Both the position numbers and the translations under genes were made by a program. A DNA stretch of 64,000 nucleotides from Bradyrhizobium barranii subsp. barranii (GTDB lineage Bacteria > Pseudomonadota > Alphaproteobacteria > Rhizobiales > Xanthobacteraceae), in NCBI RefSeq assembly GCF_017565645.3, contig NZ_CP086136.1:5625501-5689500 (forward strand), written 5' to 3'. Shown here piece by piece: positions 43,075-56,066 of this stretch. The notes beneath the pieces are model-generated. The model searched no databases. It had not been told where the DNA came from and was given only the letters and a program-made list of their open reading frames with translations. Numbering within the stretch: position 1 is the first letter of the stretch; the number at the start of each line of letters is the position of its first letter.

Positions 43075-44925
43075 TTACTTCGTGCGCCGCTTTACCTCAC
43101 GCACCGCACCGCGTGCGGCGCTGGTGGTGAGTGCTGCGTAAGCCTGAAGCGCGGTCGAGACGTTGCGCTTACGGCCCGTCGCCTGCCAGGCGGCATCGCC
43201 CTTGGCCTCTTCCGCCGCGCGGCGCTTGGCGAGCTCCTCATCGGAGACCTCCAGGCTGATGCTGCGGTTCGGGATGTCGATGGCGATGCGGTCGCCGGTG
43301 CGCACCAGACCGATGTTGCCGCCTTCGGCCGCTTCCGGCGACAGATGGCCGATCGAGAGGCCGGACGAGCCGCCGGAGAAGCGTCCGTCGGTGACGAGCG
43401 CGCAGGCTTTGCCGAGGCCCATCGATTTCAGGTAGCTGGTCGGATACAGCATCTCCTGCATGCCGGGGCCGCCGCGCGGACCTTCGTAAATGATGACCAC
43501 GACCTCGCCGGCGACGACCTTGCCGCCCAGAATGCCTTCAACGGCCGCGTCCTGGCTCTCGAACACGCGTGCCGGGCCGGAGAACTTCAGGATCGAGGCG
43601 TCGACGCCCGCGGTCTTCACGATGCAGCCGTCCTGCGCGAGGTTACCGTAGAGCACGGCGAGACCGCCATCCTTGCTGAAGGCATGCTCGAGGTTGCGGA
43701 CCACACCCTTCTCGCGATCGCTATCGAGCTCGTCGTAACGGCGCTCCTGGCTGAAGGCGACCTGGGTCGGAATGCCGCCGGGCGACGCGCGGAAGAACGT
43801 GCGGACAGACTCGCTCTTGGAGCGCTTGATGTCCCAGCGCTCCAGCGCGTCGTTCATGGTCGGCGCGTGCACGGTCGAGACCGAGGTGTCGATCAGGCCG
43901 GCGCGGTCGAGCTCGCCCAGAATGCCCATGATGCCGCCGGCGCGATGCACGTCCTCGACATGGACGTCGGCGACCGATGGCGCGACCTTGCACAGCACGG
44001 GCACGCGGCGCGACAGCCGGTCGATGTCCTGCATGGTGAACTCCACCTGCCCTTCATGGGCCGCCGCCAGCAGATGCAGCACGGTGTTGGTCGAGCCGCC
44101 CATGGCGATATCCAGCGTCATCGCGTTCTCGAACGCCTTGAAGTTGGCGACGTTGCGCGGCAGCACGGAGGCATCGTCCTGCTCGTAATAGCGGCGCACG
44201 ATATCGACGATGGTGTGGCCGGCCTCGACGAACAGGCGCTTGCGGTCGGCGTGGGTCGCCACCACCGTGCCGTTGCCGGGCAGCGCGAGGCCGAGCGCCT
44301 CGGTGAGGCAGTTCATCGAATTGGCCGTGAACATGCCCGAGCAGGAGCCGCAGGTCGGACACGCCGAGCGCTCGATCACCTTGACGTCCTCGTCGCTGAC
44401 CTTGGAGTCGGCGGCCGCCACCATGGCGTCGATGAGGTCGACGGCCTTGGTCTTGCCCTGCAGCGTGACCTTGCCGGCCTCCATCGGGCCGCCCGAGACG
44501 AACACGGCGGGGATGTTGAGCCGCAGCGCGGCCATCAGCATGCCGGGCGTGATCTTGTCGCAGTTGGAGATGCAGACGAGGCCGTCGGCGCAATGAGCGT
44601 TGGCCATGTATTCGACGCTGTCGGCGATCAGCTCGCGCGACGGCAGGCTGTAGAGCATGCCGTCATGGCCCATGGCGATGCCGTCATCGACCGCGATGGT
44701 GTTGAATTCCTTGGCGACGCCGCCGGCCTGCTCGATCTCGCGGGCAACGAGCTGGCCGAGGTCCTTGAGGTGGACGTGGCCGGGCACGAACTGGGTGAAG
44801 GAGTTGACGACCGCGATGATCGGCTTGCCGAAATCGGCATCCTTCATGCCCGTCGCGCGCCAGAGGCCGCGGGCGCCCGCCATGTTGCGGCCGTGGGTGG
44901 TGGTGCGGGAGCGATAGGCTGGCAT
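43075..44925 (-). CDS. ilvD: Dihydroxy-acid dehydratase
   Basis: A Fe-S dehydratase of 616 residues in valine, isoleucine and pantothenate synthesis. Conserved parts are [53 protein letters not shown] and [19 protein letters not shown] (Cys ligands), and the C-terminal [25 protein letters not shown]. Length and motifs are complete. It is transcribed alone. The 200 bases upstream (44926-45126) contain no other supported gene. Confidence 0.96.
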
Positions 44926-45126
44926 GGCGGTTTCCGTCCTCGGTTGGGTCAGCCGGGCGGAAAAATGGAAGCCGCCTCAGGCCTTTCCGGCCGGATAGCG
45001 CACGGGCTGGGCGCGCGCAACGGGAACTTGCCCCGAAACGGCCCGGATCGGCCCCGCGCAGGCCTCCCCTGCTCCGGGCGCGGGTTATTGCAGGGTCGCG
45101 CCAGCGCCGGACGAACGCCGCAGCAG

Positions 45127-45996
45127 CTAGCGCTTCGGCTTGGGCAGCACAATTCTCCCCTGGGAGGCGATGCCGCCCCACTTGGCGGACCACCCGACTT
45201 CCGAGGCCGAGAATGGCTCGATGCCTGCATGACCCCCGGCACCCTGCAGTGCAAACAGGGCGCCCTGGGGATCCACACATCGTGCGATCCAGCAGCCATC
45301 AGGCAATTCGATCGGACCCTGGAGGATCCGGCCTCCACCAGCATTCACATGCTTCGTCGCAGCGCCGATGTCGTCGACATTGAAGTAATGCAGCCAACAT
45401 GGCTGCGCTACGCTCGAAAGTTTCGTCAGCATGCCGCCGACCGTTTGCCCCCCCGCCGAAAACAATTGGTACCAGTCCGCTGGATCGGTTTGAGCGTCAG
45501 CCTTCTGCCAACCAAATAGTTCTCTGTAGAAATCGAAGATCACGGTCCGGTCGGCGGCCAATAGCTCATGCCAGCCTACGCGCCCGGGCTCGTCCAGCCG
45601 GCCCGGTTTCCATCGGCCATATGTCGGTTTCTCGATCAGCCCGAACGTCGCTTTCTGCGGATCGGCAGCGACTGCTATTCGGCCAATATTGGTGTCGGTC
45701 GGCGGCACAAAGATCGTGCCTTCGAGACGCCTGATCTGCGCGGCAGCCCCGTCCAGGTCGTCGACAGCGACGTAACCCATCCATCTCGGCGTTGCCCCTG
45801 ATCTCCGCCCCTCTTCCGGGATGTCCATAAGGCCGCCCAGCGGGGTGCCGCCGCTACGAACCACCGTGTAAGGCAGTTCCGGAGTCGATTCATCCGTCAC
45901 GCCCCAGCCGACGACCTTGCGATAGAATGCGCCCGCCGCCGCGACGTCCGTGGTCAGCAGTTCGTACCAAGCGAAACGTCCGAGTTGATCCGCCAC
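45127..45996 (-). CDS. VOC family protein with two glyoxalase-like modules
   Basis: A 289-residue protein made of two vicinal-oxygen-chelate modules. The first begins FAWYELLTTDVAAAGAFYRKVVGW and the second VGWHELLAADRTVIFDFYRELFGW; each ends in a VDD-containing strand (MGYVAVDDLDGA, LHYFNVDDIGAA). The reaction is unknown. A GTG start at 45996 with GGAGAG upstream is preferred to the longer frame from 46056. The gene is divergent from the RiPP precursor, and the shared 240-base region holds a GTTGAC-N7-GTCAAC palindrome. VOC proteins can serve in resistance, but a link to the RiPP locus is speculative. Confidence 0.82.
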   Translation of the reverse strand: MADQLGRFAWYELLTTDVAAAGAFYRKVVGWGVTDESTPELPYTVVRSGGTPLGGLMDIPEEGRRSGATPRWMGYVAVDDLDGAAAQIRRLEGTIFVPPTDTNIGRIAVAADPQKATFGLIEKPTYGRWKPGRLDEPGRVGWHELLAADRTVIFDFYRELFGWQKADAQTDPADWYQLFSAGGQTVGGMLTKLSSVAQPCWLHYFNVDDIGAATKHVNAGGGRILQGPIELPDGCWIARCVDPQGALFALQGAGGHAGIEPFSASEVGWSAKWGGIASQGRIVLPKPKR

Positions 45997-46070
45997 GCCG
46001 ATCTCTCCGTTCAAACCTGGATGCGATTGCGGCACTGCACCAAGTTGCACTCGCACCGAGAGCGTGGATC

Positions 46071-46089
46071 GTTGACGCGTTGTGTCAAC
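46071..46089. promoter_or_regulatory. Operator-like palindrome GTTGAC-N7-GTCAAC
   Basis: Perfect 6-bp arms at 46071-46076 and 46084-46089, in the divergent region between the VOC gene (start 45996) and the RiPP precursor (start 46237). The spacing between TTGA and TCAA is 9, not 6, so it is not a FixK/FNR box. It has the look of a dimeric repressor or activator site, but the protein cannot be named. Confidence 0.45.
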
Positions 46090-46236
46090 CGGCCGTGCCG
46101 ATTGCCGTTCATGAAGATGAATACATCCCGAACGTGCAGCGCCGCGCTTTTGTGCGCGTAATTGTTGCCCGCGTTATTTCCTGGGCGTAGACTTACCGCG
46201 GGTGGGATACTTCTTGCAATGCTCGGAGGTTCGACC

Positions 46237-46686
46237 ATGCGGCAGGCGAAGAAGACTTCTAAAGGGAAGAAGCGAGTAAGCAAAGTCGCCGTGCCGGCGT
46301 TCGGAGCCGCAGGGTTGACGTTCTCGCTGGCGGGAGGCGCATCGGCGTCCGCCGTACCGACACCCGACGTACAACAATTGCCGCACCTTGGAACGGGCCA
46401 GGCAATCACGCTCGATGAAGAGGAAATGGCTGACGTCAGCCTGGCCACCTTCCATCTCTTCGACAAGGAAAACGCCGGTAGCCGCGTGCAGCTGGCATGG
46501 CGCGGATGCGGCGGTTGCCGCGGCTGCGGAGGCTGTCGGGCTTGCCGTGGCTGCCGATGTGGCGTCGGTTGCCGATGTGCGGGTTGTGCAGTTGGCTGTG
46601 CTGTCGGCTGTGGCGTTGGTGTGGTGGGATGCGCCGTAACATGCGCGGGTTGCTGCGCATCGTGGGGCCGCTGCCGCGTGTGCTAG
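46237..46686 (+). CDS. Azole-RiPP (TOMM) precursor peptide with 18-Cys Gly-rich core
   Basis: A 149-residue precursor. The ATG at 46237 has GGAGG eight bases upstream; the longer frame from 46162 lacks this. Residues 1-39 look like a Sec signal (MRQAKKTSKGKKRVSK, hydrophobic VPAFGAAGLTFSLAGG, then ASASA). Residues 40-88 are an acidic leader with ITLDEEEMADVSLATF and HLFDKEN. From about residue 89 the core is almost only Gly, Cys, Arg, Ala and Val: CGGCRGCGGCRACRG, CAVGCAVGCG, CAVTCAGCC. It has 18 Cys in 61 residues and very few Ser/Thr. The synthetase and dehydrogenase genes lie directly downstream, so Cys-to-thiazole(line) conversion is expected (family knowledge). Cys-rich heterocycloanthracin-type precursors are the nearest analogue I recall. 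Confidence 0.82.
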   Translation: MRQAKKTSKGKKRVSKVAVPAFGAAGLTFSLAGGASASAVPTPDVQQLPHLGTGQAITLDEEEMADVSLATFHLFDKENAGSRVQLAWRGCGGCRGCGGCRACRGCRCGVGCRCAGCAVGCAVGCGVGVVGCAVTCAGCCASWGRCRVC

Positions 46687-46729
46687 ACCCCGGCGCGTTC
46701 CGAATGTCAAATTCACGGGTCGATAGGTC

Positions 46730-46761
46730 ATTGGCCGGCCTCAAGAAAGGGTCCGGCCAAT
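46730..46761 (+). terminator. Hairpin between precursor and synthetase genes (possible attenuator)
   Basis: Perfect 9-bp arms ATTGGCCGG (46730-46738) and CCGGCCAAT (46753-46761) with a 14-base loop, followed by a weakly T-rich TGCTTGATTTCG. It lies 44 bases after the precursor stop and about 150 bases before the synthetase start. A partial terminator here would give more precursor than enzyme, as in several RiPP operons; a 3' stabilising hairpin is the alternative. Confidence 0.5.
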
Positions 46762-46913
46762 TGCTTGATTTCGCTACGACGCCTGCATCGGCGGCTTGCG
46801 GGTGACAGCTGAATTCGTTTCAATTCTCTGGGAAAATGCCGGCGCGCGGTCGCGACGATCCATCTTGCGCCGGGTATCTAGCGTGACGGCAACAGGATCA
46901 GCGTGCTGACTCA

Positions 46914-49160
46914 ATGACTGCAACTCGCAAGACCCGCGTTGCGCGGCAGATCCGCAAAGACATTCTCCGATTTGCACCGAACTTCACCGCTTACTTGCTG
47001 CCTCCCGATGCGGTTTGTCTCTATTCCGAGAACCGCAAATTCTTCCTGCACGGCGAGCTCTACTGCGCCCTCGCCACTGCGATCGGGCAACACGGCAAGA
47101 CCGGGTCGGAGATCATTCGCCAGCTTTCGAAGCACTTCCCGGCCGACAAGATCGAGGAAGCAATCAAGCGGCTGCTCGATCGCCGATATGTCGTTGCGCG
47201 GACCCCGAAAGCTTTCGACGACGCCGTCGGCGGTTTCCTGGCAAGCCTCGGAATGCCCTTGGATATCGCGGAACAAAATCTTCGCAATTGCCCCGTGCGG
47301 GTCGAGTCGATTGACGTCAAAGGCGCCAAGGAGCTGACCGCGGCGTTGGGTAAGCTCGGCGTTCAAATCGCCAAGCGCTCGCCGAAGCTCACGATCACGC
47401 TGGTGAACGATTATCTTGACGGGCGACTTGCTGAACTGAACCAGGAACGTGTGGCCGGCAAGACGTCCTGGTTGCTGGTACAGCCGTCCGGCGCGTTTCC
47501 GCTGGTCGGGCCCATGTTCAAACCGGGCGAGAGCGCCTGCTGGACCTGCCTGTTCGATCGCATGATCCGCAACCGGGAGATCAAGGGGTTTCTTGACCGG
47601 GGACCGGCGCGTGCGGTTGCCATATCGCCTCTCGTCAGGGAAAGCGTCGGCAAGACTGGAATCCATTTTGCGGCGGTCGAGATCGCCAAGGCAATTGCCT
47701 CGGATTTTCGCACCGATTTGTGCGATCACATCGCAAGCTTCGACCTGACCGGCGCCGCCATCGCCAAGCACTACGTGACGCGACGTCCACAATGTCCGAC
47801 CTGCGGCAGCAGGAAGCTGAACAACCCGCGCCGATCTCCGGTCCTGGTCGAGATTGCCGAGGGCAAGAGGCTCGTCATGACCAGCGGTGGATATCGCACC
47901 GTGACGTCGCGGTCGACGGTGTCGCGCTTCCGCAAGCATGTGAGTCCACTGACAGGGGTGGTGACCCGACTCGAGCGGATCGACGTTGATCTGCCGATGA
48001 ACACCAATTACTTCGCCCAGCACAATTTCTCCGCGCCGGCCCACAGCATCGACCAGCTCAGGTCCGGATTGAGTGGCGGCAGTTTTGGCAAGGGCTCGAC
48101 CGCCGAGCAGGGTGAAGCCAGCGCGCTGATGGAATCGATCGAACGCTATTCGGGCATTTTCCAAGGCGATGAGATCAGGACGACGCGCCGCTTCGTCGAT
48201 TTCGCGCCTGGCGACGCGCTTCTTCCCAACGACGTGCAGCTCTTCAGCGACACGCAGTTCAAGACCAGGTTTCTGCAGCAGCAGGACGATCCCCATCCGG
48301 TGCCCGAGCCGTTCGATCCCTCGACGAGGACCGAGTGGTCGCCGGTCTCGTCGTTGCGCGACAAACGCTTCAAATATCTGCCGACCGGCCTCCTGTACTT
48401 CTTCTATGGCGGCTTTCATACGGATTCCAACGGCTGCGCGGCCGGCAACACCCGCGACGAAGCCATCGTTCAGGGCTTCCTCGAACTGATCGAGCGCGAT
48501 GCCTACGCGATCTGGTGGTACAACCGGGTGCAGCGCGCCGAGGTCGATCTCGGGCAATTCGACGATTTCTATGTTCGGGATCTCCAGGCTCAATTTGCGG
48601 AAGCCGGGCGCAAGCTATGGGTGCTCGACATCACCACGGACCTCGGCATTCCGACTTACGTGGCGATCATGCACTGGATGCAGAATGGACATGAGAATAT
48701 CGAGTTCGGTTCCGGCGCGCATTTCGACCGCCATATAGCGCTGCTGCGATCCCTCACCGAACTGACCCAATTTATGTCCGTCGGCATGATGGGCGGCGCA
48801 AGCGGCGAGAAGCCGACCCTCGACGGTGTCACGCCGCTGCGCCTGGAAGACTACCCGTTCCTGACACCGAGCGACCACCCGATCGTCCCCCCAGCGCCGA
48901 GCCTCAAGCTTCACGACAATACGCGTGACCAGGTCATTGCCTGCGTCGAGATCGCCGCCCGTGCAGGCTACGATTTCCTCGTCCTCGACCAGACACGTCC
49001 CGACGTCGAGGTTCCGGTCGTCAGAGTGCTCGTTCCCGGCCTGCGTCATTTCTATCGCCGTTTCGCACCGGGGCGCCTTTACGATGTGCCGGTGAAGCTC
49101 GGATTGTTGGACCGGCCGCGACCGGAAAGCGATCTGACTTCATTCCTTCCACACACCTGA
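46914..49160 (+). CDS. TOMM cyclodehydratase: fused E1-like leader-binding protein and YcaO
   Basis: A 748-residue fusion. Residues 1-100 resemble a leader-peptide recognition (RRE) domain. An E1/ThiF-like partner follows to about residue 300, with two zinc-type pairs, ACWTC (Cys209, Cys212) and QCPTC (Cys294, Cys297). From about 360 to the end is the YcaO ATPase: GKGSTAEQGEASALMESIE near 392-410, GNTRDEAIVQGFLELIERDA, and VLVPGLRHFYR. YcaO phosphorylates backbone amides with ATP so that Cys, Ser or Thr cyclise to azolines. The ATP/Mg Glu residues are present, so it should be active. The C-terminus ends RPRPESDLTSFLPHT, without a clear PxPxP. No strong ribosome site is seen at 46914. Confidence 0.9.
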   Translation: MTATRKTRVARQIRKDILRFAPNFTAYLLPPDAVCLYSENRKFFLHGELYCALATAIGQHGKTGSEIIRQLSKHFPADKIEEAIKRLLDRRYVVARTPKAFDDAVGGFLASLGMPLDIAEQNLRNCPVRVESIDVKGAKELTAALGKLGVQIAKRSPKLTITLVNDYLDGRLAELNQERVAGKTSWLLVQPSGAFPLVGPMFKPGESACWTCLFDRMIRNREIKGFLDRGPARAVAISPLVRESVGKTGIHFAAVEIAKAIASDFRTDLCDHIASFDLTGAAIAKHYVTRRPQCPTCGSRKLNNPRRSPVLVEIAEGKRLVMTSGGYRTVTSRSTVSRFRKHVSPLTGVVTRLERIDVDLPMNTNYFAQHNFSAPAHSIDQLRSGLSGGSFGKGSTAEQGEASALMESIERYSGIFQGDEIRTTRRFVDFAPGDALLPNDVQLFSDTQFKTRFLQQQDDPHPVPEPFDPSTRTEWSPVSSLRDKRFKYLPTGLLYFFYGGFHTDSNGCAAGNTRDEAIVQGFLELIERDAYAIWWYNRVQRAEVDLGQFDDFYVRDLQAQFAEAGRKLWVLDITTDLGIPTYVAIMHWMQNGHENIEFGSGAHFDRHIALLRSLTELTQFMSVGMMGGASGEKPTLDGVTPLRLEDYPFLTPSDHPIVPPAPSLKLHDNTRDQVIACVEIAARAGYDFLVLDQTRPDVEVPVVRVLVPGLRHFYRRFAPGRLYDVPVKLGLLDRPRPESDLTSFLPHT

Positions 49161-49174
49161 AGGGCTGCTCTTTC

Positions 49175-50632
49175 GTGCGCGCTCCCCGGAAAAAGCCGAC
49201 CAGGAAGATCGCGCCAGACATTGCCGCCCGGTTGAGCCATCATTTCTCCCTCCAGATGCAGCCGGACGGAAACATCGCCGCCATTCTGGGCGATTATTCC
49301 GTCAACCTCGGACAATTCAGCGCGGCCGCGATGGACTGCGCGCGACATCTGAGCACCGGCCTTCCGCTCGCGTCCTTTGCAGGCAAGAGCGCCCTCGCGA
49401 GAGACGTCGACGCCCTGGTGCGTCGCTTGGCCCGGCAGGGGCTTCTGGAATACCGCCTCTCCTCTTCGCGTAACACGCAGGACTTCGTGGTCATCGAGCC
49501 CCAAGTCCCCGAATACTGGCCGCGGCGCGCGAAGCTGGGCAGTCGTGACACCATCGTGCTATCGCGCTTTGCCTTTCTGCGCCGGCGCGGCAACGAGCTG
49601 GTGCTGGAATCGCCACGCGCCGGCGCGTTGTTCCGGATTGGCGATCCCGCCATCGCCGCCACCCTTGCTGCGCTGTCGCAGCCTCGCAAGATCGGCGAGC
49701 TGAACCAGAAGATAGCTTCCTCCACCCTCCATCTGCTCGAACTGTTGCTGGACAGCCAGATCCTGCTCAAGCTCGATGCGAAAGACGGACAAGGCCTTCG
49801 GGTGAATGAAGGCGATGGCAATCTCGTTCTCTGGGATTTCCATGATCTGGTGTTTCACACGCGGAGCACGGAGGGTCGGCAAGCCAATCCGGTCGGCGCC
49901 GCCTTCACCTATGCCGGCATCGTTCCGCCGTCGCCGGCGGTGCGTCCGCCCTGGACCGGCAGCAAGATTGACCTGCGCAAATTCTCCTCCCCGGAGCCGA
50001 ACTCCCGCTTCCCGAAGCTGTTGCGCGAACGCCATTCGACGCGGGAATTCGACGACAAGAATCCGGTCACGCTCGGCGAACTCGCGCAGTTTCTCGACAC
50101 CAGCGCGCGCGTCTTGTCCGAATGGAAGAGCGAGCCGTATTTCGAAGGCGGTTCCGACGTCACCTACAGCACAAGGCCTTATCCGTCGGCGGGCAGCGCG
50201 TACGAGCTGGAATTGTACCTTACCGTCGCGAACTGCGACGGGCTTGCGCGCGGGCTCTACCACTACGATGCAGGGAGCCACGCTCTCGTCGCGATCAGCG
50301 CCTCCCCCCAACAACTCCAGGCGCATTTGGCGGCTGCCCAGTTCGCCATGGACGCGCCGGGTCAGCCGCAAATCCTCATCACGATCGCGGCGCGTTTTGG
50401 GCGGATCTCCTGGAAATACAGCTCAATCGCATATTCGCTGATCCTGAAGGATGTCGGCAGCCTGATTCAGACGCTTTACCTGGCGGCGACCGATATGGGC
50501 CTCGGCGGCTGCGCCATTGGCAGCACCAACATCGATCTGTTCGCGAAAATGACGGAGTTGGAATTCCATATCGAGGGCCCGGTCGGTCAATTCGCGCTCG
50601 GGCGCGGCAGGACGCCGGAGGTCCAAGGCTAG
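49175..50632 (+). CDS. SagB-type FMN-dependent azoline dehydrogenase
   Basis: A 485-residue protein. The C-terminal half (about 275-480) is a nitroreductase-fold FMN domain: RERHSTREFDDKNPVTLGELAQFL, TRPYPSAGSAYELELYL, GLYHYDAGSHAL, AYSLILKDVGSLIQTLYLAATDMGLGG and GPVGQFALGRG. In TOMM systems this enzyme oxidises azolines to azoles. The N-terminal 215 residues are a less conserved SagB-associated region that may bind the substrate. The start is a GTG at 49175 with GAAGGG upstream, 14 bases after the synthetase stop, so the two enzymes are one operon. There is no separate exporter, protease or immunity gene downstream on this strand. Confidence 0.9.
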   Translation: MRAPRKKPTRKIAPDIAARLSHHFSLQMQPDGNIAAILGDYSVNLGQFSAAAMDCARHLSTGLPLASFAGKSALARDVDALVRRLARQGLLEYRLSSSRNTQDFVVIEPQVPEYWPRRAKLGSRDTIVLSRFAFLRRRGNELVLESPRAGALFRIGDPAIAATLAALSQPRKIGELNQKIASSTLHLLELLLDSQILLKLDAKDGQGLRVNEGDGNLVLWDFHDLVFHTRSTEGRQANPVGAAFTYAGIVPPSPAVRPPWTGSKIDLRKFSSPEPNSRFPKLLRERHSTREFDDKNPVTLGELAQFLDTSARVLSEWKSEPYFEGGSDVTYSTRPYPSAGSAYELELYLTVANCDGLARGLYHYDAGSHALVAISASPQQLQAHLAAAQFAMDAPGQPQILITIAARFGRISWKYSSIAYSLILKDVGSLIQTLYLAATDMGLGGCAIGSTNIDLFAKMTELEFHIEGPVGQFALGRGRTPEVQG

Positions 50633-50665
50633 AAGCGGGTGTCCGACGGCGTCAGGCCAGTCGCC

Positions 50666-51526
50666 CTATTGCAAGGTCGGATCGAGCCGGTCGCGCAGCC
50701 AGTCGCCGATCACGGAGACGGCCAGCGTGGTGATCACGATGGTGGTCGCCGGCGCCAGCATGATCCAGGGCGCCCGGGTCAGGTACTCGCGGCCATAGCC
50801 GACCATGTTGCCGAGGCTGGTCATCGGCGGCTGCACGCCGAGGCCAAGGAAGGACAGGCCGGATTCCATCAGGATCACCTCGGGGAAGACGAGCGTGGTC
50901 GAGACGATCAGGGTCGAGGCGATGTTGGGCAGGATATGCCTAAGGTAAATCCGCGACGGCGTCGCACCGAGCTGGCGGACGGCCGCGGCATAGCCTTGCG
51001 CATTGGCGGAGATGGCGAGGCCGCGGGCGATGCGGGCATAGCGCTCCCAGCCGAACAGCCCCATCAGGCCGATCAGCAGCGGCAGCGAATTGCCGAAGAA
51101 GGCCAGCACCGCGAGCGCCATGATCAGGAACGGCATGCTGGCCTGGAAGTCGGTCAGCATCAGCACGAACTGCTCGACGGCCCCGCGGAAATGCGCGGCG
51201 AGAAAGCCGAGCGTGGTGCCGACGATCGCCGAGATTGCGGTCGCGCCGAAGGCGATCAACAGCGAGATGCGGATCGAGACGAGGAGCCGCGACAGCACGT
51301 CGCGGCCGAGCTCGTCCGTGCCGAGCCAGTGCGCGACATTGCCGGGCGCGGCCAGCCGGTTGCGCAGGTCGAGCTGGGTGAAGCTGTAAGGCGCGATTTT
51401 CTCGGCGAACGCCGCGATCACCAGCATGGCGACGATCCAGCTGATCGCGAGCGCGACCGAGACCGGGATCGCGGGAAGGCTGATGCGGCGGCGGACAGCC
51501 GTATCCTTCAGCGTCGTATCGGTCAT
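50666..51526 (-). CDS. Peptide-type ABC transporter permease (DppC/OppC-like)
   Basis: A 286-residue inner-membrane permease. An N-terminal helix (VALAISWIVAMLVIAAFA) precedes HWLGTDELGRDVLSRLLVSIRISL, the signature of the DppC/OppC/GsiD branch. The EAA loop reads AAAVRQLGATPSRIYLRHILPN. The ATG at 51526 overlaps the stop of the partner permease. The longer frame to 51814 is rejected. It is the last gene of a six-gene minus-strand operon for uptake of peptides or another opine-like substrate. Confidence 0.92.
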   Translation of the reverse strand: MTDTTLKDTAVRRRISLPAIPVSVALAISWIVAMLVIAAFAEKIAPYSFTQLDLRNRLAAPGNVAHWLGTDELGRDVLSRLLVSIRISLLIAFGATAISAIVGTTLGFLAAHFRGAVEQFVLMLTDFQASMPFLIMALAVLAFFGNSLPLLIGLMGLFGWERYARIARGLAISANAQGYAAAVRQLGATPSRIYLRHILPNIASTLIVSTTLVFPEVILMESGLSFLGLGVQPPMTSLGNMVGYGREYLTRAPWIMLAPATTIVITTLAVSVIGDWLRDRLDPTLQ

Positions 51527-52452
51527 GCATGCGCCCCTTTGGCGCGCAGGCGCGGATCGAGGAAGCCGTAGAGGAAATCGACGATCAGATTCGACGTGAC
51601 CATGGTCATCGCGACCAGCAACAGGATGCACTGCACGACGGCGAGGTCGCGGTTGGCGACGGCGACGACCAGCAGGCGCCCTACTCCGGGCCAGGCAAAT
51701 ACGCTCTCGACCACGACCGCGCCCGCGATCAGCGTGCCCACCATGAAGCCGAGAATGGTGACGGTCGGGATCGCCGCGTTCGGCAGCGCATGCGACGTCA
51801 CCACCTTGCGCCACGGCACGCCCTTGGCCGAGGCGGTGCGGATATAGGGCTGGCCCAGCACCTCCAGCATGGCGCTGCGGGTGAAGCGCGCCAGCACCGC
51901 GGCGCCGCCGAGGCTGAGTGTCACGATTGGCAGGATGGCGTGACGCCAGCTGTCCTGCCCGCCCGACGGCAACCAGCCGAGCTGAACGGCGAAGACGAGC
52001 ACGAGCAGCAGCGCAAGGACGAAACTCGGCACGGTGAAGCCGGCGACCGCCGTCATCATCACGGCGCGATCGATTCCCGAGCCGCGGTGCAGCGCCGCGT
52101 AGATGCCGGCGGGAATGCCGAGGGCCACCTTGAAGAAGAAGGCCGGCAGCGTCAGCGCGAGCGTTGCCGGAATCCGCTCCAGCACGAGCTCGATCGCCGG
52201 CCGCCCGTCGCGCATGGAGCGGCCGAGCTCGCCCTTGGCAATGGCGCCGAAGTAGTCGAGGTACTGGAACCAGATGGGATCATCGAGCCCCCAGGCCTTG
52301 CGGAAAGCAGCGAGCACTTCCGGCGGCGCCTCCGGTCCCAGGATCATCAGCGCAGGATCGCCGGAGAGCCGCAGCACCACGAAGGCGAAGGTGACGACGA
52401 GCACGATCGTCAGCGCCGCGCGTCCGATCCGAATGGCGAGATAGCGTCCCAT
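51523..52452 (-). CDS. Peptide-type ABC transporter permease (DppB/OppB-like)
   Basis: A 309-residue permease with the typical short N-terminal start MGRYLAIRIGRAALTIVLV, then LDDPIWFQYLDYFGAIAKGELGRSM and the EAA loop RTASAKGVPWRKVVTSHALPNA. It pairs with the DppC-like protein to form the transmembrane channel. Its ends overlap both neighbours by three to four bases, showing tight coupling in the operon. Confidence 0.92.
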   Translation of the reverse strand: MGRYLAIRIGRAALTIVLVVTFAFVVLRLSGDPALMILGPEAPPEVLAAFRKAWGLDDPIWFQYLDYFGAIAKGELGRSMRDGRPAIELVLERIPATLALTLPAFFFKVALGIPAGIYAALHRGSGIDRAVMMTAVAGFTVPSFVLALLLVLVFAVQLGWLPSGGQDSWRHAILPIVTLSLGGAAVLARFTRSAMLEVLGQPYIRTASAKGVPWRKVVTSHALPNAAIPTVTILGFMVGTLIAGAVVVESVFAWPGVGRLLVVAVANRDLAVVQCILLLVAMTMVTSNLIVDFLYGFLDPRLRAKGAHA

Positions 52453-53444
52453 CAGGCCGCGTCCCGCGTCTCGGCCTGCCGCCCCGTCACGAGATGGCAG
52501 GCGACTTGCCTGTTGCCGCCGACGCCCGACAGCGCCGGCACCTCGCTCGCGCAGCGCGCGATAGCGCGCGGGCAGCGCGGATGGAAGGCACAGCCTTGGG
52601 GCCGCGCCGCCGGGTTCGGCGGATCGCCCGCCAGCACGATGCGGCCCGCGCTGCGGCGGCCCGGTGCCGGCGAGGCCGAGACCAGCGCCTGCGTATAGGG
52701 ATGTTCGGGACGCGCGAAGAGATCGTCGGCGCTGCCGATCTCGACGATGCGGCCGAGATACATCACGGCGACGACATTGCTGATCTGCCGCACGACGCGC
52801 AAATCGTGGCTGATGAACAGTCGCGTCAGCCCGAGCTGCGCCTGGAGATCGCAAAGCAGGTTCACCACCTGCGCCTGGATCGAAACGTCGAGCGCGCTGA
52901 CCGGCTCGTCGCAGACGAGGAAATCGGGCTTTGTCGCCAGTGCCCGCGCCAGCACGATACGCTGACGCTGGCCGCCGGAGAGCGCGCCCGGATAGCGCGC
53001 GCCATGCGCCGGTGTCAGCTCGACGGCGCGCAGCAATTCGCGGACACGCTCCTCGCGTTCGGCCGGCGTGCCGAGACCGTGAATGTCCAGAGGCTCGCGG
53101 ATTTGGGCCGCGACCGGCAACCGCCGGTCCAGCGCCCCCAGCGGATCCTGGAAGATCATCTGCATGCGCGCCCGCTGCGCGCGCCACGCCTTCGTGCCTG
53201 GCGCGGCCATCGCCTTGCCGTCGAACCGCACCTCGCCGCGATCGGGCGGCTCGAGACCGAGCACGATACGACCCGTGGTCGACTTGCCCGAGCCGGACTC
53301 GCCGACGAGGCCGAGCGTCTCGCCCTTGCGGATCGCAAGTGACAAGCCGTCGACCGCGTGAACCGCCGTGCTGCGGCCGAACATCCCGGAGCGCATCGCG
53401 TAGCTGCGCGAGATCGAGGACACCTCGACAAGCGGCCCGCTCAT
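52452..53444 (-). CDS. Peptide-type ABC transporter ATPase (DppF/OppF-like)
   Basis: A 330-residue ATPase. Walker A is GLVGESGSGKSTTGR, the Q-loop IFQDPLGALD, the signature LSGGQRQRIVLARALA, Walker B FLVCDEPVSALD and the H-loop LFISHDLRVV. The C-terminal oligopeptide/dipeptide extension includes CAFHPRCPRAIARC, the Cys-rich Fe-S-like motif of this subfamily. The start at 53444 overlaps the second ATPase gene by four bases. All catalytic motifs are intact, in contrast to its partner. Confidence 0.92.
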   Translation of the reverse strand: MSGPLVEVSSISRSYAMRSGMFGRSTAVHAVDGLSLAIRKGETLGLVGESGSGKSTTGRIVLGLEPPDRGEVRFDGKAMAAPGTKAWRAQRARMQMIFQDPLGALDRRLPVAAQIREPLDIHGLGTPAEREERVRELLRAVELTPAHGARYPGALSGGQRQRIVLARALATKPDFLVCDEPVSALDVSIQAQVVNLLCDLQAQLGLTRLFISHDLRVVRQISNVVAVMYLGRIVEIGSADDLFARPEHPYTQALVSASPAPGRRSAGRIVLAGDPPNPAARPQGCAFHPRCPRAIARCASEVPALSGVGGNRQVACHLVTGRQAETRDAA

Positions 53445-54428
53445 TCGGCGGCGATCCCGAGCAGCGCGCGGCGCGAGGCCTCGGCACGGATGCAGGCAAC
53501 CACGCGATCGTTCGCGATCGGCGCGAGGCTCGGCACGGCAAGTCCGCACGGCTCGGCCGCCAGCGCGCAGCGCGGCGCGAAGGCACAGCCGCTTGGCATG
53601 TGCGCGGGATCGGGAACGGTCCCCGGAATGGCCGTGAGACGCCGACGCGGTCCGTCGAGCGGCGGCAGTGCGCCGATCAGGCCCTGCGCGTAGGGATGCA
53701 CCGGATCGGCAAAGAGCTGATTGGCGGGCGCCTGCTCGACGATGCGGCCGGCATACATCACGGCGACGCGGTCGCAGTTTTCCGCGACGACGCCGAGATC
53801 ATGGCTGATCAGCACCATCGCCATGCTCATCTCGCGGCGGATGGTCGAGAGCAGCTCCAAAATCTGCGCCTGGATGGTGGCGTCGAGCGCCGTGGTCGGC
53901 TCGTCCGCGACGAGGAGATCGGGATTTCCGGCCAGCGCCATCGCGATCATGATGCGCTGGACCTGGCCGCCCGAGAATTCGTGCGGATAGGCCTCGAGCC
54001 GCCGCGCCGCATCGGGAATGCCGACGAGATCGAGCAGCCGCCGCGCTTCGGCCTTCACCGCCTCGCCCGAGAGATGGCGATGCAGCGCCAAAGCCTCGCA
54101 GAGCTGCTTGCGAATGGTGAGCACCGGATTGAGCGCGCTTGCGGGATCCTGAAAAATCATGGCGACCCGCCCGCCCCGCACCCCGGTCAAGCTCACCCGC
54201 GGCTGCGCCGAGGATTTCGCGTCCGTCGAGCCGCACGGAGCCCGAGACTTTTGCATGCCGCGGCAAGAGGCCGAGTGCAGCAAGCCACGTCACTGACTTG
54301 CCGGAGCCGGACTCGCCGACGAGGCCGAGCGCCTCTCCCTTCTGCAAAGCGAGATCGACGCCGCGCAGGACCGCTACGCCGTTGAAGGCGACGCTGAGGC
54401 CCTGGATGCTGACCAACGGCGTCGCCAC
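53441..54428 (-). pseudogene. Peptide-type ABC transporter ATPase (DppD/OppD-like), frameshifted
   Basis: From the GTG at 54428 the N-terminal part reads MATPLVSIQGLSVAFNG with Walker A GLVGESGSGKSVTW, then runs out of frame at about 54181-54184. The rest is in another frame: AMIFQDPASALNPV (Q-loop), EFSGGQVQRIMIAMALA (signature), LLVADEPTTALD (Walker B), VLISHDLGVV (H-loop) and the C-terminal CAFAPRCALAAEPC motif. One extra C in the CCCC run at 54181-54184 explains the shift; removing it joins LDR directly to VRGGRVAMIFQ. Either the transporter has lost one ATPase or the base is a sequencing error. Confidence 0.85.
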
Positions 54429-56066
54429 TTACGCCTCGAAATTGCCGGCGCGGAAATCCATCGCGAATGCCGGCGACGCCTTCCACTTGATCGACTTCGG
54501 CTTCGCGGTGAAGGTCGCGTTCTGGTGCAGCACAGTGTAGGCGGGATCCTCGCGCTCGGCGATCTCGAGCATGCGGCGGAACGCCTTCTTGCGGGCGGCC
54601 CGGTCGGTCGAGGTCTCCAGGAACTCCGAAAGCTTGTTCAGTTCGGCGTTGGTCCACTCGCCGATCTGCTGCTGCTGGCCGTTCGGGCCGTGCTGGGCGA
54701 CCAGCGACGAGACGGGATCGTTGAAGGCAGCCGAGTTCGACCAGTCGCGTACCGCGCGGGTCGGCGCGCGTTCCATGATCTGCGACCAGTTCTCCTTGGT
54801 CTCGATCTGGACGTTGAGGCCGACCGACTTCCACATCTCGACCAGCACCTGCGCGGTCGCGACCTGGTTGGTGTAGTAGTTGTTGAGCAGGCGATACGGA
54901 ATCGGATCGCCCTTGTAATTGGCCTGCTTCAACAGATCCTGCGCGAGCTTCGGATCGTAGGCCGGCACGCTCCAGTCGGCGTTGAACATGTCGCCGTAGA
55001 ATTCCCACTGCAGGCCCTTCGGCACGCGGGTACGGCCCGCCCACAGGCTGTCGACGATCGCCTGGCGGTCGATCGCGTGGGTGAAGGCGCGCCGCACCAG
55101 AGGATTGGCGAGCTGGGCGTGGTTCTTGTCGAATACGGTCAGGCGGTGATTGAGGATGGTGCCGCCCTGCACTTCGAACGCCGCGTTCTTTTCGATCCCG
55201 GCAATCTGGTCCGGCGGGATGTCGCAGGCGAACTGGTATTCGCCCGACAGCAGCCCGTTGATGCGGCTCGCGACCTCGGGCACTTCGAGGAAACGGATGC
55301 GCTTGAGCGGCGGCCGGCCGCCCCAATATTCGTCATGCGCCTCGAGGGTCAGCGACACGTCGGGCTTGAGCTCGACGACCTTGTACGGGCCCGTCGTGAT
55401 CGGCTTGCGCGCCCAGTCGAGATAGCTCGCGGATTGCTCCCAGGCACGGCGGTTCATGATGTCGGAGCCGTAGCGCGACAGCCGGCCCTCAATCGTGACG
55501 TCGGGCGTCGCGTTGTAGAAGCGCACCGTGTACTTGTCGACGGCATCGACGCGCACGAGGTCCGGCCAGATGCGGCGGGCGACCGCCGGCACATCAGGCG
55601 GCAATTCCTTGCCCGGGCGCGGCGTCGGGATCTTCTCGAAGGCCTGGATGGTGGAGCGGCTCTTGGCCTCGGTCTCGCCGAACATGCGCTCGCGGCTGAA
55701 CGTGAAGACGACGTCTTCGGCCGTCAGCTCGTCGCCATTGTGGAACTTCACGCCCTGGCGCAGCTTCACCTCGACGGTCTGGTCGTCGATGCGGCGCCAC
55801 TCGGTGGCGAGGCCCGGCACGGCCTCCAGGCTGCCACGCCAGTTCTTGGAGATCAGGCCCTCCCAGATCGAGGAGAAGAACACGCGCTCGCCGACGTTCG
55901 ATTGCTCGCGCAGCACGTCGAGCACGTTCGAATTCGTCACCTTCTGCACGGCAATCGTCACCGACGGACGGTTGTCCGCCTGCCCGATCGCGAAGCGCGG
56001 CAGGAGAAGCGTGCCCGCGGCAACGCCGCCGGACTTCAGGATGGTGCGACGGGTGAGTTTGCTCAT
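54429..56066 (-). CDS. ABC transporter substrate-binding protein, oligopeptide family (SBP_bac_5)
   Basis: A 545-residue periplasmic receptor. It starts MSKLTRRTILKSGGVAAGTLL, a twin-arginine-like signal, with cleavage near FAIGQA (residue 30). Family features are LRQGVKFHNGDELTAEDVVFTF, ARKPITTGPYKVVELKPD, HDEYWGGRPPLKRI and RRAFTHAIDRQAI. The ligand may be a peptide, opine or sugar-like compound; the class is broad. It stands between the TIM-barrel gene (30 bases upstream) and the ATPase genes, forming one operon. Confidence 0.92.
   Translation of the reverse strand: MSKLTRRTILKSGGVAAGTLLLPRFAIGQADNRPSVTIAVQKVTNSNVLDVLREQSNVGERVFFSSIWEGLISKNWRGSLEAVPGLATEWRRIDDQTVEVKLRQGVKFHNGDELTAEDVVFTFSRERMFGETEAKSRSTIQAFEKIPTPRPGKELPPDVPAVARRIWPDLVRVDAVDKYTVRFYNATPDVTIEGRLSRYGSDIMNRRAWEQSASYLDWARKPITTGPYKVVELKPDVSLTLEAHDEYWGGRPPLKRIRFLEVPEVASRINGLLSGEYQFACDIPPDQIAGIEKNAAFEVQGGTILNHRLTVFDKNHAQLANPLVRRAFTHAIDRQAIVDSLWAGRTRVPKGLQWEFYGDMFNADWSVPAYDPKLAQDLLKQANYKGDPIPYRLLNNYYTNQVATAQVLVEMWKSVGLNVQIETKENWSQIMERAPTRAVRDWSNSAAFNDPVSSLVAQHGPNGQQQQIGEWTNAELNKLSEFLETSTDRAARKKAFRRMLEIAEREDPAYTVLHQNATFTAKPKSIKWKASPAFAMDFRAGNFEA

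Follow-up and report, generated by a model that had tools for sequence, protein, structure and literature searches.

Here, we describe a locus of Bradyrhizobium barranii subsp. barranii, a member of a common soil and legume-root genus, that is best explained overall as a four-gene RiPP module with satellite substrates encoded elsewhere in the genome, a reading to which we give a probability of about 0.72. By sequence comparison, the precursor, which is rich in Cys, Gly, and Arg, forms one conserved unit with a predicted LynD-type fused cyclodehydratase, a dehydrogenase of the ThcOx type, and a VOC protein (Table 1), and most likely the dispersed precursors would let one synthase make several cationic polythiazoles for export. 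The locus lies in the window, i.e., the whole stretch of 64,000 nucleotides that was analyzed, and positions are counted from its first letter.

Table 1. Positions of the module genes and associated features in the window
Feature	Positions	Strand	Basis or remark
Two-domain VOC (glyoxalase/bleomycin-resistance fold) protein, 309 aa as listed	45127..46056	-	
Operator-like inverted repeat GTTCAT-N4-ATGAA(T/C)	46107..46122	.	Lies between the precursor gene and the divergent VOC gene
Putative promoter TTGCCC-N17-TAGACT	46165..46193	+	By eye, partly conserved blocks; weak
Ribosome-binding site GGAGG	46225..46229	+	Similar in relatives
Precursor peptide, 149 aa	46237..46686	+	ORF (ATG at 46237, stop codon 46684-46686), homologues, dN/dS
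Signal-peptide-like N-terminus, residues 1-37	46237..46347	+	Start rich in K/R; hydrophobic segment; A35-S-A37
Conserved leader box LDEEEMADVSLATFHLFDKE, residues 59-78	46411..46470	+	Proposed binding site of the enzyme's RRE domain
Gly/Cys/Arg core, residues 89-149, ending CCASWGRCRVC	46501..46683	+	Tail conserved
Fused RRE/E1-like/YcaO cyclodehydratase, LynD type, 748 aa	46914..49160	+	LynD, TruD matches
SagB/ThcOx-type FMN azoline dehydrogenase, 485 aa, GTG start	49175..50632	+	8pz5/CyaGox match

The cyclodehydratase gene follows the precursor gene after a gap of 227 bp. Its product matches TIGR03882 (E = 1.7e-41) and PF02624 (E = 1.3e-89) and also TIGR03604 (E = 4.8e-62), the last with 210 bits, which is below the cut-off of 219. 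The protein is colinear with LynD (4v1t; E = 5.2e-138) over residues 17 to 741, with further matches to TruD (4bs9; E = 9.6e-133) and MusD. We checked positions that we take to be functionally important from work on LynD/E. coli YcaO and BcerB. In the cyclodehydratase, 15/15 such positions and 4/4 zinc Cys were invariant in all 37 members; S390, K393, E407, E410, R411, N512, E516, Q520, E524, E527, and R528 were the same in every one. The loss of ATP-site residues, which the preliminary description named as a finding that would refute it, is thus not seen at the checked residues. A C-terminal PxPxP motif is typical of azoline-forming YcaOs; at this position, the 37 C-termini instead have variants such as TPFLPHT and NPxHPHT. 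Both this replacement and the TIGR03604 score below cut-off weigh against the overall reading. The dehydrogenase matches TIGR03605 (E = 3.7e-57) and PF22767 (E = 5.7e-33) and is closest to 8pz5 and CyaGox (5lq4; E = 1.4e-50). Nine of its 10 checked positions were invariant, W413-K414-Y415 being present in 37/37 members, and S338 varied (S in 28, A in 8, and G in 1). The fused E1/YcaO cyclodehydratase and SagB dehydrogenase proposed from the letters alone are therefore confirmed by TIGR03882, PF02624, TIGR03605, LynD, and CyaGox. Together with the Cys-rich precursor, these family matches bear out the earlier assignment to an azole RiPP locus, and the predicted azole chemistry is well supported by sequence.

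The core occupies the last 61 of the 149 precursor residues and contains 18 Cys, exactly as first counted, as well as 17 Gly, 8 Arg, and a single Ser and Thr each, so that it is indeed nearly free of Ser/Thr; His is absent. No Pfam or NCBIfam family matched the precursor at an E value of ≤1, and calmodulin matches of the leader (E = 1.2 to 1.6) were dismissed as chance. The precursor is nevertheless not a chance ORF, because homologues occur in 77 of 80 named relatives, 4,076 of 4,465 candidate proteins match it at an E value of ≤0.01 (the best 120 are listed, and the low-complexity core may add false matches), and the dN/dS ratios of its three parts are 0.21 to 0.24 against 11 close relatives (gapped codons omitted). 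By the same measure, all parts of the module are under purifying selection (dN/dS, 0.15 to 0.24). The three loci in which the precursor was missed lie on contigs that start <500 bp upstream of ycaO. The precursor family that the preliminary description had suggested searching for in other genomes was thus found.

Across the 77 precursors, the core is 37 to 81 residues long with 12 to 23 Cys and consists of 34% Gly and 29% Cys, with a median of 8 Arg/Lys/His and no Asp/Glu in any of them. The commonest Cys-Cys spacing is 3 (673 of 1,174 intervals). In the leader box, LxEEExxDVSLATF, residues E62, E63, D66, L69, T71, and F72 are invariant in 77/77 precursors, and the tail CCxSWGxCxxC is present in 72. 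By a simple pattern, the N-terminus of 73 precursors combines a start rich in K/R and a hydrophobic stretch with A-x-A (n = 68) or S-x-A (n = 5); the starts of these carry a net charge of +4 to +9, and none has a twin-arginine pattern. The remaining four have related N-terminal sequences outside this pattern. From these features we infer a putative Sec signal, against which stands a modest hydrophobicity (best 12-residue mean, 1.59 to 2.38). The most diverged full relative, G1000 (L188, 5611-5973), has a GAGC lipobox-like signal end on its precursor and a core terminating in GCGG, without the SWG tail; its module adjoins carbamoyltransferase and amidase genes. In one public allele, P0007 (Bradyrhizobium sp. 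SEMIA), the core is in another reading frame after GCGGC.

The host genome (11.4 Mb) has a single match to the YcaO enzyme. Within the family, 63 of 391 genomes matched at an E value of ≤1e-60; after three with only 33 to 37% identical relatives were dropped, the cassette was present in 60 (about 15%), with the enzyme 61 to 100% identical. At the order level, 8 of 397 genomes matched, i.e., five of the genus, G1000 (57%), G976 with two frames (63% and 49%), and G904 (37%). At the class level, 13 of 385 did so, one being the host genome itself (G000) and the other 12 having ≤42% identity. A search of named genomes gave 258 stretches that code for a relative. The 80 best of these, which were analyzed, are mostly from Bradyrhizobium; the MAGs among them are assigned to Xanthobacteraceae, Beijerinckiaceae, Methylocapsa, Hyphomicrobiales, Alphaproteobacteria, or Proteobacteria. 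One record titled Frankia sp. RB7 (L131) carries a Bradyrhizobium-type module with 81% identity and is probably a mislabelled or mixed assembly. Distant LynD-type proteins from the family and class searches (31 to 42% identity) were rejected as members of the same system, the best leader-profile E value in their 15 loci being 1.9; 11 of these loci had only ∼1.5-kb flanks, so that precursors farther away would be missed. No such precursor was recognizable near the LynD-like genes (31 to 42%) of other Alphaproteobacteria (L071-L081, L049, L050, L069, and L070), which would be azole loci of other, unassigned kinds.

The dehydrogenase is encoded in all 80 named loci, and the gene order is conserved in 37/37 long loci. 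All four module genes also occur together in another family, on plasmid pHY1 of Methylovirgula sp. HY1, where they sit between multicopper oxidase and cbb3 oxidase genes. Leaving aside overlapping-frame ORFs, no additional neighbor cluster, whether regulator, transporter, or other, adjoined the module in more than 11 of the 37 loci, some of which are truncated where the contig ends. By Pfam, the ten window ORFs that neighbor the module have housekeeping or transport functions. Beyond the module, oligopeptide-type ABC transporter and binding-protein genes occupy positions 50666-56066 on the minus strand; similar neighbors were seen in only about 8 to 10 of the 37 loci, the closest relatives. 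No Rfam family was found at 44500-51500.

The VOC gene is present in 57 of the 60 family genomes with the cassette and adjoins it in 55, in each of these on the strand opposite to the other three genes. A VOC protein this similar was found in 0/331 cassette-less family genomes, where the best bit score was 237, compared to at least 252 in cassette genomes. Weaker relatives in 12 cassette-less genomes (41 to 48%) were set aside, as no module genes were present in the seven contexts examined. No VOC match at an E value of ≤1e-20 was found in G1000 or in three fragmented genomes; since G1000 keeps the precursor, YcaO, and dehydrogenase, the VOC protein is not essential to the chemistry. The true VOC start is probably further in, near 46014, because residues 1 to 22 are unmodelled and the alignments of many relatives begin only at residues 15 to 28. 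The protein belongs to the VOC fold, its nearest structures being Rv0577 and then AbxF, a biosynthetic enzyme. Bleomycin-resistance proteins hold a bithiazole drug, but the likeness of the VOC partner to them is only suggestive, and no bleomycin-binding protein was among the best 50 matches of either VOC fold comparison.

Precursors are not confined to the module. A leader-only profile (E ≤ 1e-6) detected them in 56 of the 391 family genomes, that is, in 56/60 enzyme-bearing genomes and in 0/331 without the enzymes; the four cassette genomes lacking a match are fragmented assemblies (G076, G099, G117, and G132). Between one and five precursors were found per genome, counts that are lower bounds, as at most 13 candidates were scored in each. 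Fourteen of the 56 genomes contain 22 extra copies, 21 of them unlinked, since one adjoins its own module's VOC gene (G115). Two are in the host genome, 3.1 and 2.6 Mb off, one ending in CCARWGRCRWC and the other having a long GGFVG/CGG core without the tail. The 22 extra cores are diverse, from CGGC/CRGC repeats to Ser-Cys repeats (L236), and six (L228, L239, and L242-L245) have short clusters of 3 to 7 Cys with Pro/Lys/His-rich or basic tails; the C-x-x-W-G-x-C tail pattern is retained in 12. As the host genome has only one enzyme of this type but three precursors, which share a leader and differ in their cores, the simplest reading is that the dispersed precursors would be substrates in trans of one enzyme set.

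The core of L236 (G021) is extreme, with 22 Cys, SCSCSC runs, and a CCCCWC end. L243, L244, and L245 (from G310, G370, and G348) have near-identical short-Cys, Pro/Lys/His-tailed cores and perhaps represent a separate product type. A lone precursor (L180, 7950-8399) lies between insertion sequences on a conjugative plasmid of Bradyrhizobium sp. Ash2021, with no module enzyme in the 16 kb examined. The preliminary description had treated the locus as compact and its three genes as the minimal set. The three genes are there, but the VOC gene in 57/60 genomes and the precursors elsewhere speak against this wording, an objection that is itself qualified by the diverged lineage without the VOC gene. 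Nor had the description noted the two further precursors, the VOC gene on the other strand, the signal-like N-terminus, or the repeat upstream of the precursor gene.

Upstream of the precursor, the inverted repeat GTTCATGAAGATGAAT is the best conserved block in an otherwise diverged VOC-precursor region. Of the 77 relatives, 64 have a copy with ≤2 mismatches located between −118 and −176 relative to the precursor start, and the 13 without it include all 7 with the VOC gene downstream. Six of the 22 dispersed precursors have the repeat with ≤1 mismatch at −125 to −131, and a seventh has it with two mismatches at −132; it is missing from the expected place in the other 15, of which L241 has a two-mismatch copy at −73. 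In the host genome, one dispersed precursor has a two-mismatch repeat and the other has none. Base-shuffled upstream regions gave 0 repeats in 11,000 trials (plain shuffle). Part of this sharing may reflect duplication, because the repeat-bearing dispersed copies resemble each other around the repeat; the flanks of the window's repeat differ from theirs. A regulon defined by the exact motif was rejected, since six of its eight distinct genome sites are inside mechanical ORFs; the other two are the window site and one between two divergent ORFs (L174). A second repeat copy ∼5.1 to 5.7 kb upstream in some relatives was set aside, as it lies in or beside open frames. The putative promoter is a weak candidate, as a scan with the sigma-70 consensus found none.

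In the proposed mechanism, the RRE part of the enzyme would grip the leader box, and the YcaO part, with ATP, would cyclize Cys side chains onto the carbonyl that precedes each of them to give thiazolines, which the dehydrogenase would oxidize to thiazoles. The same enzymes would act in trans on the dispersed precursors. The modified chain, a long, cationic, acid-free polythiazole, would leave via Sec by its N-terminal signal-like segment and be cut by signal peptidase. Service by Sec and signal peptidase would explain why the module has no conserved transporter or protease neighbor.

Our leading guess for the function, and a tentative one, is antibacterial use, with a cytosolic VOC protein that may protect the producer by binding the azole chain. 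The long cationic thiazole chains, the signal-like start, the VOC partner, and the lack of a conserved transporter or protease would fit such an exported antibacterial, but also a periplasmic metal-binding product or a tailoring or regulatory VOC protein. The broader form of the antibacterial reading is more speculative still: genome-wide, jointly regulated, Sec-exported polythiazoles might come from one LynD-like synthase and several dispersed precursors, with the VOC protein as immunity and part of the diversified precursors co-switched by the GTTCAT-N4-ATGAAC element. The VOC protein might, on the other hand, be a tailoring enzyme or regulator rather than an immunity protein, a possible role, though short of even odds, that is compatible with either an antibacterial or a metal-related product. 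AbxF, the second-best fold, forms a spiroketal in antibiotic biosynthesis; the best NCBIfam match is the AfsK-binding KbpA, below cut-off (86.6 versus 250 bits); and the lineage without the VOC gene also lacks the CCxSWGxCxxC tail, which would fit modification of the tail. The opposite strand in the 55 adjoining cases argues against such a role, and sequence and fold alone cannot separate it from immunity.

A rather unlikely alternative to antibacterial use is an exported, bufferin-like metal-binding azole peptide, in which rings and His/Arg/Gly spacers would bind copper or a soft metal in the periplasm and the VOC protein would handle a linked stress. Bufferins are Cys-rich periplasmic copper binders (PMC12452194), and the oxidase genes around the Methylovirgula plasmid copy, together with His/Cys/Gly-rich members (the Methylovirgula core with CGHG/CGRG, L042, and L044), point the same way. 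Full azole conversion, however, would remove the thiols, the window core has no His, and no non-module gene (overlapping-frame ORFs apart) is common to more than 11 of the 37 loci. That the product is a signal or symbiosis factor for a plant host seems improbable and looks the weakest of the roles, since metagenome-assembled bacteria and the plasmid copy of Methylovirgula are among the members. Bradyrhizobium accounts for most of the named hosts, but the cassette is in only 60/391 family genomes, and its window neighbors are housekeeping or transport genes. A decaying or silent locus is very improbable indeed: the frameshifted core of P0007 is outweighed by open frames with 12 to 23 Cys in 77/77 precursors and by the low dN/dS ratios.

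Among known systems, the cyanobactin enzymes LynD/TruD/MusD and CyaGox (ThcOx) are most alike in having a colinear fused RRE/E1/YcaO protein and a ThcOx-type dehydrogenase, and the leader box may resemble the cyanobactin recognition segment. Cyanobactins differ by PatA/PatG-type proteases and macrocyclization. No protease or macrocyclase gene was found for the Bradyrhizobium module, with no PatA/PatG-type gene among the ten window neighbors (Pfam) and no further neighbor in more than 11 of 37 loci, and the module has instead a long poly-Cys core, another C-terminal motif, the VOC gene, and the signal-like N-terminus. The heterocycloanthracins, or Cys-Xaa-Xaa bacteriocins, of Bacillus are likewise putative thiazole TOMMs, with a repeated Cys-Xaa-Xaa core and a precursor far from the enzymes (PMC2674419; PMC4603692). 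They have a truncated cyclodehydratase, a separate F protein, and a TIGR03601 precursor, whereas here the enzyme is full-length and fused, the precursor has no NCBIfam match at an E value of ≤1, and there are one in-module precursor, possibly further dispersed ones, and the VOC gene. In the NHLP/Nif11 TOMM families, the D proteins group with those of cyanobactins, PatA/G are lacking, and cores are hypervariable (PMC4603692). Unlike in those families, the module precursor matches no Pfam or NCBIfam family at an E value of ≤1.

The split arrangement of precursor and enzyme is found here in the genes, with one enzyme set, unlinked precursors, a shared leader, and variable cores. Prochlorosins reportedly have many precursors for one enzyme, compared to the one to five per genome found for the module. 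They also rely on one promiscuous enzyme (PMC10783134) but have lanthipeptide chemistry. Phazolicin, a Rhizobium LAP, is a rhizobial azole peptide antibiotic too; it differs in that its product has 27 residues and carries five oxazoles besides three thiazoles, and in that its C, B, and D genes are separate and accompanied by an additional E gene (PMC6783444). Bufferins are Cys-rich RiPPs with a Sec signal peptide and differ by their MNIO/DUF2063 enzymes and thiooxazoles (PMC12452194). Neither the module nor its ten scanned neighbors in the window included an MNIO or DUF2063 gene. The bufferin paper calls Sec export rare among bacterial RiPPs and gives it as shown in the natural host for bufferins only (PMC12452194).

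No description of the locus or its product was found in the parts of the literature searched, which excluded subscription journals and preprints, and this fits the earlier statement that the product is undescribed. A word search of the main text of the 2015 TOMM survey found neither "Bradyrhizobium" nor "rhizobi," the nearest wording in that text being the Gly- and Cys-rich anabaenasin precursors. Thiazole TOMMs, Cys-Xaa-Xaa cores, unlinked Bacillus precursors, multiprecursor RiPPs, and Sec-exported bufferins are already known. As far as our searches show, the combination is new, i.e., LynD-type enzymes with a dispersed, VOC-linked polythiazole family that has signal-like starts, in Bradyrhizobium.

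The module would be a small synthase, complete in itself, for chains that are extremely rich in thiazoles. It may also represent an azole RiPP exported via Sec; if true, this would be, to our knowledge, the first azole RiPP shown to exit by the general secretory pathway. Binding of the chain by the VOC protein, if true, would be a new self-protection principle for polythiazoles, and the module offers a way to test whether thiazole compounds and VOC proteins are linked. Precursors dispersed through the genome, in turn, may be substrates that locus-based cluster mining overlooks.
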